Of a DNA stretch of 64,000 bases, positions 1,874 to 43,166 are shown piece after piece. Under the pieces are notes generated by a model. The model did no database searches. It was not told the origin of the DNA and saw only the letters and a list, made by a program, of their open reading frames with translations. Source of the stretch: Williamsia serinedens (GTDB taxonomy: Bacteria; Actinomycetota; Actinomycetes; Mycobacteriales; Mycobacteriaceae); NCBI RefSeq assembly GCF_024171725.1, contig NZ_JAMTCG010000003.1, positions 682,001 through 746,000 on the forward strand. Direction: 5' to 3'. Position numbers and translations under genes: made by a program. Positions within the stretch are counted from its first letter, which is position 1. Each line of letters starts with the position of its first letter.

Positions 1874-2893
1874 ATGAAGAACATCGGTTTCCTGTCGTTC
1901 GGGCACTGGACGCCCTCTCCGCAGTCTCAGACGCGGTCCGCGGCCGATGTGCTCCTCCAGTCCATCGACCTGGCCGTCGCCGCCGAGGAGCTCGGCGCGG
2001 ACGGCGCCTACTTCCGCGTCCACCACTTCGCCCGCCAGCTGGCGTCGCCGTTCCCGCTGTTGTCCGCGGTCGGCGCGCGGACGTCGCGGATCGAGATCGG
2101 CACGGGTGTCATCGACATGCGGTACGAGAACCCGCTCTACATGGTCGAGGACGCGAGCGCCGCGGACCTCATCTCCGGAGGCAGACTGCAGCTCGGCATC
2201 AGCCGGGGATCCCCGCAGCAGGTGATCGAGGGCTACAAGTACTTCGGGTACGCGCCCGCCGAGGGTGAGACCGACGCCGACATGGCGCGTCGCCACACCG
2301 CGGTGTTCCTGCAGGGCCTCGAGGGCCAGGGGTTCGCACGTCCGAACCCGCGGCCGATGTTCCCCAACCCGCCGGGACTGCTCCGCCTCGAGCCACACTC
2401 CGAGGGTCTGCGCGAGCGGATCTGGTGGGGCGCCGGCACGCGCGCGACCGCGGAGTGGGCTGCGCAGCAGGGCATGAACCTGATGAGCTCGACCCTGCTC
2501 ACCGAGGACACGGGTGTGCCGTTCCACGAGCTGCAGGCCGAGCAGATCCGCGTGTTCCGCAAGGAGTGGCAGAACGCGGGTCACTCCTTCACACCACGGG
2601 TGTCGGTGAGCCGCAGCATCTTCGCGATCACCGACGACCGGGACCGCGCCTACTTCGGTCACGGTGGACAGGAGTCGGACCAGGTCGGGCACATCGACGG
2701 CGGCATCGCCCGGTTCGGGCGGTCCTACGCCGACGAGCCGGACAGGCTCGTCGAGCAGCTGGCCGAGGACTCGGCGATCGCCGAGGCCGACACCCTGCTG
2801 CTGACGGTCCCCAACCAGCTGGGCGTCGAGTACAACGCCCACGTCATCGAGTCGATCCTGACCCACGTCGCGCCGGAGCTCGGCTGGCGCTGA
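1874..2893 (+). CDS. LLM-class flavin-dependent oxidoreductase
   Basis: Luciferase-like monooxygenase superfamily protein (TIM barrel, FMN or F420 dependent), 339 aa. The N-terminus KNIGFLSFGHW, a conserved HH near YFRVHHFA, and the SGGRLQLGISRG segment are typical of the alkanal/alkanesulfonate monooxygenase branch. Substrate unknown. The ATG lies only 11 nt after a 12-bp operator palindrome and inside or next to the likely -10 region, so little or no 5' leader is possible. The operator is shared with the YceI gene, suggesting both answer to the same, probably redox or xenobiotic, signal; this is inference. It converges on the cyclase gene across a repeat island. Confidence 0.87.
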   Translation: MKNIGFLSFGHWTPSPQSQTRSAADVLLQSIDLAVAAEELGADGAYFRVHHFARQLASPFPLLSAVGARTSRIEIGTGVIDMRYENPLYMVEDASAADLISGGRLQLGISRGSPQQVIEGYKYFGYAPAEGETDADMARRHTAVFLQGLEGQGFARPNPRPMFPNPPGLLRLEPHSEGLRERIWWGAGTRATAEWAAQQGMNLMSSTLLTEDTGVPFHELQAEQIRVFRKEWQNAGHSFTPRVSVSRSIFAITDDRDRAYFGHGGQESDQVGHIDGGIARFGRSYADEPDRLVEQLAEDSAIAEADTLLLTVPNQLGVEYNAHVIESILTHVAPELGWR

Positions 2894-2953
2894 ACGACTC
2901 TCGTCTGCGACCCCCGTCTGCCTGGCAGGCGGGGGTCGCGTCGTCCCCACCAC

Positions 2954-3145
2954 TCGACGGGCACCGGGAACCGATCGTCGGGCACCCGGAACCGATGGTT
3001 GGGCACCAGGAGCCGTTGGTTGGGCAGTCGGGACCGTTCGTTGGGCACCCGGAGCGGCCCGGCGGCACGACCACTGCTCCAACCGCCCACCAGACGGTTC
3101 CTGCTGCCCAACGAACGGCTCCGACTGCCCAGCGAACGGCGGTCA
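2954..3145. repeat. 21-bp repeat island, direct block then inverted block
   Basis: Four consecutive units of about 21 bp start near 2968, sharing a core close to CCGTTGGTTGGGCA. After a spacer the same core recurs in reverse complement three times. The arms CCGTTCGTTGGGCA (3034-3047) and TGCCCAACGAACGG (3105-3118) are exact complements, and a third copy at 3125-3139 has one change. The island fills the 288-bp gap between the convergent LLM and cyclase genes. It could act as a bidirectional terminator or be an undescribed repeat element. Confidence 0.8.
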
Positions 3146-3181
3146 GCGGTCTGAGCGGGCAGGGCGCGCAACCCGGGCGGG

Positions 3182-4816
3182 TCAGGCTCGCTTGCCGCGC
3201 AGGATCGACAGCGGACGACGGATGAGCCCGTCGACGAGGTCGGTGAACCTCAGGTCCGAGTCGGCGACGAGATCGACCGGCGCGTGGACGTCCGTCGGCG
3301 TCGCGCGACCGCGCAGTGTCACCTGACCGATGGCGGTCCACTCGTAGTACTCGTCGTGCTCGGCGGTCAGCATGCACTCGCCGTCGTCGTCGACGCCGGC
3401 GGACACCAGGCTGTCGACCGCGGCGCCACTGGCCAGCACGTTGGACCGGCTCTGCTTGGCGACGTCGGCGAGACGCGCGCACTCGTTCACCGGGTCGCCG
3501 ATGACGGTGTACTCGTACCGGGTCTCGGCGCCGATGTTGCCCGCGAACACGCGTCCGCTGGAGACACCGATCCCCACTCGGAGCGGATGGATCTCCTCCA
3601 GCTCGGCGCCGAGCTCGCGTGCTGCGGCGAGAGCGGCCGCAGCGGGGTCGGCGACGGCGTTGGGCGCACCGAACACCGCGAGCGCGGCGTCGCCCTCGAA
3701 CTTGTTGATGAAGCCGTGGTGCCGGGCGACGACCTCGGCGACGATCGTGAAGAAGCGGTTGAGGCTCGCCGCGACGGTCTCGGGATCGGTCGACTCGGCG
3801 AACCGCGTCGACCCCTCGATGTCGACGAACAACACGCCGACCTCGGCCTGAGACCCGTGCATGCCGATGTCGGTGCGCAGCGCGCGGGCCGCGACCTCCG
3901 TACCGACGTGGCGCGCGAAGAGATCGCGTAGTCGGTCCCGCTCGGCGAGACCGTCGACCATCGTGTTGAAGCCGTCCTGCAGCACGCCGATCTCCGACGA
4001 GTCGTAGACGTCGACGCGGGTGTCGTAGTCGCCGTCGGCGACGCGCTCGACCGCACCGCGGATGTCGCGCAACGGGTCGGTGATGGACCGGGTCACCAGG
4101 GCGATCGCCCGCACGCCGCTCGCGAGACAGATGATGGCGAGGACGACCGTGGGGATGTCGAGGACCGTGTCACTCGGGGGCACCCAGCCGATGGCGCGCC
4201 CGACGTTGACCAGGACGATCCCGCCCAGCGGCACACCGCTGACGGCGAGCCACAGCACGATCATCCGTTCGCGGACGCCGAGGATCGGCTCCGGCGGCGG
4301 GGAGTCCTGCATGGCCGCGGCGACGAGCGGACGGCCGACGCGCTCCAGGATCATGTAGATCGCCGCGGCGCACGACGCACCGCCGAACGCGAAGGCTGTC
4401 GCGATGATGAGCAGGTCGATGGCCCCAAGGTCCCGGCCCGCGACGGACGCGTAGGCGACGACGCCGCCGACCCACCCGATCCCCGTCGCCGCCACACCGG
4501 TCATCGGCATGCGCTGCAGCGCGAGGCGCCGTCGTTTGTCGGCCGGGACTCCGGAGAGATACCAGCGGATGTGGGGTCGGAGCACGGCGATCGCGGCGAC
4601 GAAGTCGATGGTCGCGCCGACGAGCAATCCCCAGAAGACACCGGAAACGCTCTGCCCGCCCGAACCGAGGGTCAGGTGACCGCCCGAGGTGGTGAGAGCG
4701 ACCAGCAGCGCGGTCTCGAGACCGACCGCGACGGTGGCGACGATGATGCCGACCGTCGCCAAGCCCATCAAGCGGGACGCGACGGTGCGCCTGTCCTGCT
4801 GGTGGTGTTCGGTCAT
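3182..4816 (-). CDS. Membrane-bound class III adenylate cyclase (6TM-HAMP-cyclase)
   Basis: Predicted to make cAMP from ATP; 544 aa. Six hydrophobic segments lie within residues 16-243, a HAMP linker at about 244-297 and a class III catalytic domain at about 322-490. Metal-binding Asp332 (FVDIEGST) and Asp376 (NKFEGD), the substrate-specifying Lys372 and Asp441 (VIGDPVN), Asn444 and Arg448 are all present, so the domain should be active. The architecture matches the Rv1318c/Rv1319c/Rv1320c/Rv3645 group of M. tuberculosis. It is divergent from a TetR gene, and two CGCAA-N6-TTGCG sites lie in the shared 103-bp region, one overlapping its predicted start of transcription. Confidence 0.92.
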   Translation of the reverse strand: MTEHHQQDRRTVASRLMGLATVGIIVATVAVGLETALLVALTTSGGHLTLGSGGQSVSGVFWGLLVGATIDFVAAIAVLRPHIRWYLSGVPADKRRRLALQRMPMTGVAATGIGWVGGVVAYASVAGRDLGAIDLLIIATAFAFGGASCAAAIYMILERVGRPLVAAAMQDSPPPEPILGVRERMIVLWLAVSGVPLGGIVLVNVGRAIGWVPPSDTVLDIPTVVLAIICLASGVRAIALVTRSITDPLRDIRGAVERVADGDYDTRVDVYDSSEIGVLQDGFNTMVDGLAERDRLRDLFARHVGTEVAARALRTDIGMHGSQAEVGVLFVDIEGSTRFAESTDPETVAASLNRFFTIVAEVVARHHGFINKFEGDAALAVFGAPNAVADPAAAALAAARELGAELEEIHPLRVGIGVSSGRVFAGNIGAETRYEYTVIGDPVNECARLADVAKQSRSNVLASGAAVDSLVSAGVDDDGECMLTAEHDEYYEWTAIGQVTLRGRATPTDVHAPVDLVADSDLRFTDLVDGLIRRPLSILRGKRA

Positions 4817-28367: not shown

Positions 28368-28478
28368 CGCTCGCGCGACCGTTCCTGCTTCCGGCGACCG
28401 TCGCACCGGTCGCGGGAGGTGGGAACGGTCGCGCTGAGGACGGGAACGGTCGCGGCGGGCGGAGTCGGTCGCGGGAAC
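28368..28478. repeat. About 20-bp repeat island, direct then inverted
   Basis: Two copies built on GCGACCGT are followed by four copies in the opposite orientation sharing GGGAACGGTCGCG or GGTCGCGG, spaced about 19-21 bp. The island lies between the convergent aldo-keto reductase and repeat-protein genes, directly before a strong hairpin. It has the same architecture as the islands near 3.0 and 43.0 kb but a different unit. Confidence 0.68.
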
Positions 28479-28536: not shown

Positions 28537-28968
28537 TCAGCGGCCGCCGAGGAACGACCCGAGCTGGGTCAGGGCGTTCGTTCCCGCGGTGCCGAGCTGG
28601 GTCTGACCGTTCGTGCCGGCCGTGCCGAGCTGCGTCTGACCGTTCGTGCCGGCCGTGCCGAGCTGCGTCTGACCGTTCGTGCCGGCCGTGCCGAGCTGCG
28701 TCTGGGCGTTCGTGCCCGCGGTGCCCAGCTGGGTCTGACCGTTCGTACCGGCCGTACCGAGCTGCGTCTGAGCGTTGGTGCCCGCGGTGCCCAGCTGCTG
28801 CGAGCCGTTGGTGAGGGCGGTACCGAGCTGCTGCGAGCCGTTCGTCAGCACGGTGCCGAGCGAGTCGGCCGACGCCGGGGAAGCGACCAGGACGGCAGCG
28901 AAAGCGCCTGCGGCAAGCGCAGATCCGGTGAGAGCGGTGATGCGTGCGACGCGTGTGGTGGAGGTCAT
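28537..28968 (-). CDS. Secreted protein of 11-residue LGTAGTNxQTQ repeats
   Basis: 143-aa exported protein. It has a signal peptide (TSTTRVARITALTGSALAAG onward, cleavage after ASADS-like region ~39). The rest is nine tandem hendecads of the form LGTAGTNGQTQ, the first two diverging as LGTxLTNGSQQ, with a short tail LGSFLGGR. A 33-bp DNA repeat underlies this. The periodic Leu and Gln/Asn suggest an amphipathic helix or a beta-solenoid. I do not recognise a family and there are no cysteines. The ATG of MTSTTRV is preferred over a TTG four codons upstream. Confidence 0.85.
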   Translation of the reverse strand: MTSTTRVARITALTGSALAAGAFAAVLVASPASADSLGTVLTNGSQQLGTALTNGSQQLGTAGTNAQTQLGTAGTNGQTQLGTAGTNAQTQLGTAGTNGQTQLGTAGTNGQTQLGTAGTNGQTQLGTAGTNALTQLGSFLGGR

Positions 28969-36908: not shown

Positions 36909-36924
36909 CCCCGCCCCGAGCGTG

Positions 36925-37136
36925 CACCAGATCTCGTCGACCGTGCATCAGATCGCGCCGAGTGGTTCACGAGTGCACGGGCGCGGGGATCTAGTGCACG
37001 TTCGCGGGGATCTGCCGCACGATCGGCGAGCGGTTTCGGCACGGTCGGGGAGTCGTTTCGGCGCGGTCGGCGACTGGTTTCGGCACGGTCGGCGAGTCGT
37101 TTCGGCACGGTCGGGCAGTCGTTTCGGCACGGTCGT
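36925..37136. repeat. Repeat island: inverted pair plus five 22-bp direct repeats
   Basis: Five consecutive 22-bp units (37027-37136) share TTTCGGCACGGTCGG with one to three changes each. Before them, copies of GTGCACCAGATC recur in inverse form as GATCTAGTGCAC (around 36922 and 36989). The 262-bp gap lies between co-directional genes, and the last unit ends just before the SnoaL promoter. Unknown function; same ~21-bp period as the other islands. Confidence 0.85.
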
Positions 37137-37147
37137 CGAGTTTGACC

Positions 37148-42957: not shown

Positions 42958-43102
42958 CCTCCCGGCGTCGAGTGGGCGTTTCCGGACGTCGAGTGGGCGG
43001 TTCCCGACGTCGAGTGGGCGGCCCAGCACACTTGATCGGTCCAACCGCCCAGTGAACGTCCACAGCCGCCCAGTCGACGTCGGTGACCGCCCAGTCGACG
43101 AC
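42958..43102. repeat. 21-bp repeat island, direct then inverted
   Basis: Three units built on CGTCGAGTGGGCGG (starts ~42965, 42986, 43007) are followed after ~25 bp by three inverted copies containing ACCGCCCAGT. Spacing is 21-22 bp. It occupies the gap between the convergent phoU and pstB genes, followed by a separate terminator hairpin. Its core resembles the unit of the 3.0-kb island (TTGGGCA versus GTGGGCG). Confidence 0.82.
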
Positions 43103-43115
43103 GTTCAACCGACAG

Positions 43116-43152
43116 ACGAAGGCCCCCACCGGATCCCGGTGAGGGCCTTCGT
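43116..43152. terminator. Bidirectional terminator between phoU and pstB
   Basis: ACGAAGGCCC (43116-43125) pairs with GGGCCTTCGT (43143-43152), continued by CCACCGG/CCGGTGA inside. It lies 15 bp downstream of the pstB stop and also faces phoU. Confidence 0.78.
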
Positions 43153-43166
43153 CGTGGCGCGGTCGA

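Follow-up and report, generated by a model that had tools for sequence, protein, structure and literature searches.

Tandem intergenic repeats are familiar from the mycobacteria, in which the orientation of MIRU is tied to the neighbouring genes. MIRU have longer units than the repeats described here and no inverted arms, and to our knowledge they bracket no nuclease gene. Inverted arrays of about 22-bp TnsB sites are found at both ends of Tn7, whose TnsA protein is a nuclease of the REase fold, as are the Vsr-like homing endonucleases. Repeats of the REP/RAYT type are dispersed and extragenic, lie near stop codons and between convergent ORFs and bracket the gene of an enzyme, and REP and BIME sequences form inverted pairs that are species-specific (PMC3733652; PMC2817692). 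The antitoxin AbiEi of the type IV toxin–antitoxin system AbiE binds inverted repeats in its own promoter (PMC7319586). The MTES_1575 domain is a Vsr-type REase domain known from giant proteins that also contain HEPN, helicase and wHTH domains, and the portion of the account that covers it gives no link to repeats (PMC3710099).

Here we describe an island of 21-nt units in Williamsia serinedens, located in a 64,000-nucleotide stretch of DNA (the window), and the class of arrays to which it belongs. As in REP/RAYT, the arrays lie mainly after ORFs and between convergent ORFs (in the host and in W. deligens, but not in G007), and they bracket an enzyme gene, albeit of another kind: inverted flanks occur at all 32 nuclease loci scored, and at 22 of these a periodic array is present on each side. 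The gene encodes an AbiEi-like/Vsr-like nuclease rather than a Y1 (HUH) tyrosine transposase, and the units are in-phase tandem repeats of 20–22 nt rather than the 20–40-bp palindromes of REP. Six typed consensus units have a weak fold or none, with 10–12 of their 21–22 positions at best matching their own reverse complement, and the Y1_Tnp profile (PF01797) gave no match in the host genome, with matches in five of 14 control genomes. Because the units are not palindromes and the host has no Y1 transposase match, the arrays are not members of REP/RAYT. Co-evolution of repeat and enzyme has been reported for RAYTs, whereas retention of array class is seen here only among orthologues. The proteins resemble AbiEi antitoxins in matching AbiEi profiles in their N-terminal region, but differ in their nuclease-like C-terminal region and in the presence of repeats on both sides of the gene and genome-wide. 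Unlike in Tn7, the length and number of the arrays vary and no defined element end was seen. Like MIRU, they are tandem intergenic repeats oriented relative to neighbouring genes.

The focal island and other islands in the window

The island lies between convergent genes at window positions 2971–3139 and consists of direct 21-nt units followed by inverted units (Table 1). The direct cores are spaced by exactly 21 nt and are preceded by a degenerate unit at 2950; the inverted core at 3084 is also degenerate. The sequence CCGTTCGTTGGGCA at 3034–3047 is exactly complementary over 14 bp to positions 3105–3118. TRF reports 4.5 copies in the left arm (2959–3053, score 113) and 3.1 copies in the right arm (3076–3140, score 60). 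The core positions and TRF confirm the initial annotation, which had described four direct units of about 21 bp, three reverse-complement copies and the 14-bp exact complementarity. The right neighbour looks like a class III nucleotide cyclase when judged by eye. A hairpin similar to the one past the stop codon of the left gene is present in the close relative G005. No terminator-like site was found in window 2800–3300, and the five Rfam matches at E ≤ 1 in window 2600–3500 are all under their gathering scores.

Table 1. Positions in the window of the focal island, its neighbours and the other islands of the same period.
Feature	Position	Strand	Basis
Left neighbour gene, LLM-class flavin-dependent monooxygenase-like	1874..2893	+	Gene prediction; NCBIfam similarity below cut-offs
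16-bp inverted repeat (hairpin) directly past the stop codon of the left gene	2907..2939	+	No T-run, not called a terminator
Focal left arm: four class A units (cores 2971, 2992, 3013, 3034) and a degenerate first unit	2950..3055	+	TRF, core search
Centre separating the focal arms	3056..3083	.	Sequence
Focal right arm: three class A-like units in inverted orientation (cores at 3084, 3106 and 3127), of which the one at 3084 scored as B	3084..3139	-	TRF, core search
Right neighbour gene, convergent	3182..4816	-	Gene prediction; no NCBIfam match
Class D island, between convergent genes	28403..28476	.	TRF, gene prediction
Class C island, two sense then six inverted units, co-directional neighbours	36912..37141	.	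TRF, gene prediction
Class B island, three units then three inverted, phoU–pstB gap	42962..43100	.	Core search, NCBIfam
Terminator-like hairpin adjoining the class B island	43115..43153	.	Same hairpin in W. deligens, which is without the island

Three further islands of this period had been noted near 28.4, 37.0 and 43.0 kb, and all were found. They had been placed mostly between convergent genes, which is correct for two of the three but not for the 37.0-kb island. The four islands had also been thought to differ in unit sequence. They are not wholly different: the A, C and B islands share a core in one orientation, and the 28.4-kb island (D) has a weaker likeness to it. A predicted gene adjoining the 28.4-kb island contains a 33-nt coding repeat of about eight copies (window 28559–28831).

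Abundance, unit structure and turnover of the arrays

Searching the host genome (4.64 Mb, 33 contigs) with the focal island gave more matches than chance would: 92 at E ≤ 10, of which 75 have E-values below 1e-5, counts that include the island itself and both-strand matches of single arrays. The suggestion of a genome-wide class of element is upheld by these matches. Two of the relatives used for comparison, uncultured Williamsia sp. 235-3Z (G005) and W. deligens DSM 44902 (G006), also have class A units. The location of 19–23-nt arrays was assessed with TRF in gaps of at least 40 bp, with genes called by a simple custom finder, so that the counts include some TRF-positive gaps that resemble missed coding DNA. 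In the host (three 400-kb stretches, 1.2 Mb), arrays were found in 22 of 69 convergent, 14 of 317 tandem and 2 of 155 divergent gaps; the corresponding values are 8/29, 5/102 and 0/57 in W. deligens and 0/23, 7/119 and 0/62 in G007. The anticipated enrichment between convergent genes is therefore present in the host and W. deligens but not in G007, where no convergent gap and seven tandem gaps carry arrays. The intergenic periods found by TRF peak at 21 nt in two host stretches (25 and 8 rows) but not in the third (4 rows). Arrays are few (3) in host stretch C1:1-400000, whereas the final 400 kb of C3 contains 21.

The arrays also have a polarity with respect to genes. In Williamsia, 39 of 45 arrays beside a single 3′ end begin with units in the sense orientation and two-arm arrays in convergent gaps point inward in 19 of 20, in counts for which orthologous arrays of several genomes were entered separately and the sense orientation of each class was set after the data had been seen. 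Polarity is weak in other genera (nine sense versus five antisense; three inward versus two outward). These counts leave aside convergent one-arm arrays (25 in Williamsia, seven elsewhere) and arrays with no 3′ end nearby (11 and seven, respectively); matches of the relaxed motif search inside predicted genes were excluded (62 places in the stretches, 6 in the Williamsia loci and 4 in those of other genera).

On the sense strand, the units of classes A (CCGTTCGTTGGGCA), B (CGTCGASTGGGCG) and C (CGCCGASCGTGC) align to one core of approximately CGYCGASYGKGC, from which A is the most divergent of the three; D fits with a deletion and E fits poorly. The shared core recurs at 21 or 22 nt in several unit classes, with differing spacers. 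Among intergenic period-21 TRF rows picked without the motif, 26 of 31 have a consensus within two mismatches of the A, B or C core, compared with 167 of 5000 random 21-mers. Where a near-exact core of the same class follows within 70 nt in the Williamsia stretches, it does so at 21 nt for 28 of 29 class A and 27 of 28 class B cores, and at 21, 22 or their sums for all 37 class C cores. With spacings of 16–28 permitted, 51 of 52 class B doublets in three genomes of another genus are at 21 nt, and their spacers are unlike those in Williamsia. This fixed spacing agrees with the earlier remark that the period equals two helical turns.

In 26 of 30 motif-independent TRF rows (a set that includes two overlapping rows from one array), units agree better in the core columns than in the spacer columns, a comparison that avoids the selection of units by core match which biases the core figures of the spacer-identity count. 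In the latter, spacer identity is 0.68 within an arm, 0.56 between orthologous arrays and 0.47 between loci. Genome-wide homogenization of spacers was considered and rejected, as identity is 0.465 within and 0.472 between genomes (three genomes). Rho sites were considered by inspection alone: read in the sense strand, the units of classes A and B are rich in G and those of C and E are rich in C.

The host genome contains 76 copies of the unified doublet, eight other genomes contain one or two, and the remaining 385 of the 394 genomes sampled from the class contain none; the reversed doublet, used as a control, matched in two genomes. Within a family sample of 301 genomes, and with the host included in both counts, class C doublets are found in 20 and class B doublets in 15; single class C matches may be due to chance. 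Class B or C is present in two further genera. The largest number of exact class C doublets among the 301 genomes by far, 198, is in G280, a member of another genus. A scan of IMG/VR viral contigs for class B doublets and class C triplets gave no exact match.

Arrays are gained and lost between species. Both the host and G005 carry the focal island, whereas the corresponding gap of W. deligens measures 18 bp. At phoU–pstB the host and G005 have class B and G003 has a C-like array; in G001, G002, G006 and G007 this gap is short, with a hairpin and no array. One other orthologous gap has B in three species and C in G007. Units thus differ between species at orthologous gaps, as had been expected. 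In gap 314700 a hairpin is kept in four species whatever the array. Orthologous gaps that lack arrays can be 7–18 bp long, and at least one array provides the stop codon of the upstream gene (135523).

These observations bear on function. The initial annotation had proposed termination or chromosome organization, and neither is borne out as the main function: the phoU–pstB array sits beside a hairpin and array-less relatives have a hairpin there too, the hairpin at 314700 is independent of the array, array-less gaps can be very small and one-arm arrays fold like shuffled sequences. For 38 one-arm arrays the mean folding z relative to shuffles is 0.1 in the sense and −0.2 in the antisense direction; the 36 two-arm arrays fold strongly (mean z of −6.5) because their arms are inverted. 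An RNA hairpin as the common function was rejected, since one-arm arrays fold no better than shuffles on average. A transcriptional role for the arrays is possible.

Nuclease genes between inverted arrays

Between two inverted class A arrays at G000:C7 lies a gene (381373-382287) for a nuclease-like protein of about 305 residues, and a gene between inverted B/C arrays in another genus (L259) encodes a relative of this protein. The host has seven homologues at E ≤ 0.001 and an eighth detected by profile. One is flanked by class A, one by class C, one (a broken gene) by class E and one by 19-nt units; a fifth has a 20-nt array on a single side, and the ends of the other three are palindromic or repeated in some other way. 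In each of three species, one AbiEi-like/Vsr-like gene is flanked by the focal class, A.

In 16 genomes 162 homologues were found (5–15 each), of which 32 were scored, mostly the top-scoring ones and not a random sample (seven from the host and 25 fetched); L259 was inspected in addition. When one flank was compared with the reverse complement of the other, 27 of 27 loci (seven from the host and 20 from 11 other genomes) exceeded the 99th percentile (18.2) of 510 background genes, the lowest scoring 25.4. Five extra loci, two of them from genomes without B and C doublets, score 32–65, giving 32 of 32 loci above this percentile, from three genera. Arrays of 19–22 nt were detected by TRF or motif on both sides at 22 of these loci, on one side at three (including the W. 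deligens class A locus, L312) and on neither side at seven. In a wider background of 980 genes, 16 score above 18.2, two score above 25 and six have 19–23-nt TRF arrays on both sides; of the two above 25, one is a member of the nuclease family, met blind, and the other is a methyltransferase gene. As a measure of background proximity, 59 of 996 host genes are within 300 bp of an array. At all 17 loci where core arrays were recognized on each side (16 of the scored loci and one other), the cores point inward, as they do in 19 of 20 two-arm arrays of convergent gaps in Williamsia. That a family of nuclease genes is bracketed by inverted arrays like the dispersed ones points to a repeat-plus-enzyme system.

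Some loci differ from this arrangement. At L304, L308, L319 and L330 the direct similarity of the flanks equals or exceeds the inverted similarity, as palindromic ends would give, and L307, L308, L319, L329, L330, L331 and L333 have repeated or palindromic ends and no periodic array. Loci with such ends are perhaps a second or older type of element. A homologous outer flank is common to L303, L310 and L311 (right; class C, three Williamsia) and L330 (left), the last being a nuclease gene with palindromic ends in another genus (G015). About 1.3 kb past the host C-type nuclease element there is a further class C array, the third at this locus (L303, 3796-3892). In W. deligens, a methyltransferase gene lies between two class C arrays in an element-like orientation (G006:C1:349121-349756). 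DUF222/HNH genes were considered as a partner of the arrays and dropped; only two of 18 PF02720 matches in the host (C2:125110 and C2:630760) are beside an array as judged by eye.

The N-terminal part of all six proteins scanned matches AbiEi profiles (PADLOC). The C-terminal part matches MTES_1575 (PF18741) or DUF559 in five of eight proteins, above the Pfam cut-off in three, and the other three gave no match to a nuclease profile; the A-type protein scores 26.4 against MTES_1575, below the cut-off of 38.2. A profile match links the C-terminal region to an endonuclease-like protein of known structure (PDB 3hrl; 4.9e-6). Residues Glu201, Asp234, Asp247, Gly248 and Arg277 are common to seven aligned members and, from the alignment, are the putative PD-(D/E)XK catalytic residues. 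NCBIfam gave no match for seven of eight proteins and weak matches below the cut-offs for L307, DUF559 and Vsr among them. Single-sequence fold prediction of the G005 A-type protein gave no usable model (mean pLDDT of 33.7).

Array classes were assigned before the protein tree was made, with class C split by spacing and genus. On a tree of 27 proteins, 11 changes account for the classes, where the minimum is 10 and shuffles average 20.2 (none of 200 was as low); with class C merged, nine changes suffice (minimum 7, shuffled 16.7, 0 of 1000 as low). This signal vanishes when one protein is kept per class and place (16 rows, with most classes as single rows; nine changes versus 9.4 for shuffles, 523 of 1000 as low), and only class retention at the level of orthologues is therefore established: orthologous genes keep their array class. 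Repeat–enzyme co-evolution beyond orthologues was sought and none was found on the 16 rows. The A proteins form a single clade (99/96) whose sister group is the B proteins of G005 and G006 (100/100), and C21 is sister to the C22 proteins of G001 and G007 (100/100). A B-flanked and a C22-flanked gene of G002 are also sisters, and class B needs four changes. The A-type gene looks stable, being at the same place in three species. Another chromosomal place is occupied by B-type elements in G005 and G006 and by G-type elements in G003, G004 and G007; one of its outer flanks recurs at a C22-type element in G002. Loci L313, L315, L317, L318 and L332, together with one flank of L325, represent one place with different array classes across Williamsia species.

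The correspondence between nuclease genes and dispersed doublets was compared in four genomes, which were partly sampled. Three of these have an A-type gene and carry 12–40 class A doublets per Mb, compared with one doublet in the G007 stretch. Classes G and K are present in the stretch from G007, a genome with G- and K-type genes, and absent from those of the host, G005 and G006. For classes H and J the host has genes, yet there are no doublets in any stretch sampled; not every such gene therefore goes with dispersed arrays. Exact class B doublets number 36 in the host, none of whose eight homologues is flanked by class B arrays.

Origin of the arrays and alternative explanations

Our preferred reading, to which we give a probability of a little under 0.6, is that the focal island is a non-autonomous class A copy of repeats that are kept and spread by cognate nucleases, in a manner resembling REP/RAYT. 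A complete element would comprise direct 20–22-nt units, a gene for a nuclease of the AbiEi-like and Vsr/MTES_1575/DUF559 type, and inverted units. We infer that the protein would bind the phased cores cooperatively through its AbiEi-like region on one face of the helix, a step made plausible by the binding of inverted repeats by AbiEi antitoxins, and that the nuclease would nick or cut the DNA at the bound array. Repair or transfer of the cut DNA would then duplicate units locally and seed copies elsewhere. Copies would persist in 3′ gaps, where they would be least harmful, possibly altering the transcription of neighbours as a side effect. The computed support for such an element comprises the conserved core, the fixed phase, the local likeness of units, the gain and loss of arrays, the retention of array class by orthologous genes and the inverted flanks, mostly arrays, of the nuclease genes. 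Copies of the nuclease-flanking arrays without a gene are scattered after stop codons and between convergent genes.

The arrays could instead be regulators at 3′ ends, phased protein or RNA sites that stop or tune transcription, which nuclease genes would carry like any other gene. The sense and inward orientations in Williamsia, the greater likeness of core than of spacer columns in motif-free TRF rows and the strong preference for convergent gaps in the host and W. deligens are all consistent with this explanation. We nevertheless consider it rather unlikely: the polarity is weak in other genera, inward arms are already a feature of the nuclease-bearing elements, orthologous gaps occur without arrays, arrays coexist with terminator-like hairpins, G007 has no convergent preference, and the inverted flanks at 32 of 32 nuclease loci would be left unexplained.

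An operator, by which the AbiEi-like region would repress its own gene through the upstream arm while dispersed arrays act as decoys or a regulon, appears improbable. AbiEi antitoxins do bind inverted repeats in their own promoter (PMC7319586), the N-terminal match to AbiEi profiles is in line with this, and an arm is found directly ahead of the gene start in several loci; however, the second, inverted arm sits after the gene, and dispersed copies follow stop codons and are seldom found in divergent (promoter) gaps (2 of 155). Least probable of all, in our view, are neutral minisatellites produced by slippage and ectopic recombination with no dedicated enzyme, for which 3′ gaps are merely tolerant. 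Such an origin would account for the variable unit number, the fall in spacer identity from arm to orthologous array to other loci, the location of the arrays and the failure of array class to track the nuclease phylogeny beyond orthologues, but not for 21/22-nt spacing that is fixed in several genomes despite unlike spacers (51 of 52 doublets at 21 nt), or for inverted arrays around nuclease genes that far exceed the background.

In the open-access literature, with subscription journals mostly outside the scope of the search, no account was found of these arrays or of their link to such nucleases. The broader proposal, of a new bacterial mobile repeat system in which AbiEi-like/Vsr-like nucleases recognize helically phased arrays of 21-nt units and relocate or duplicate them in 3′ gaps throughout the genome, with several parallel nuclease–array lineages per genome, is one that we hold tentatively, at slightly less than even odds. 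If true, the actinobacterial AbiEi/DUF559 family, which is large and mostly unexplained, would be at least partly a set of engines of extragenic repeats. A common gene family would thereby gain a role, and extragenic repeats outside REP/RAYT would gain an enzyme. Each genome would offer several natural pairs of nuclease and site in which DNA recognition could be compared with array sequence, and the question of why bacterial 3′ gaps fill with repeats would become testable. The same system would account for much of the puzzling intergenic DNA in Williamsia and its relatives.
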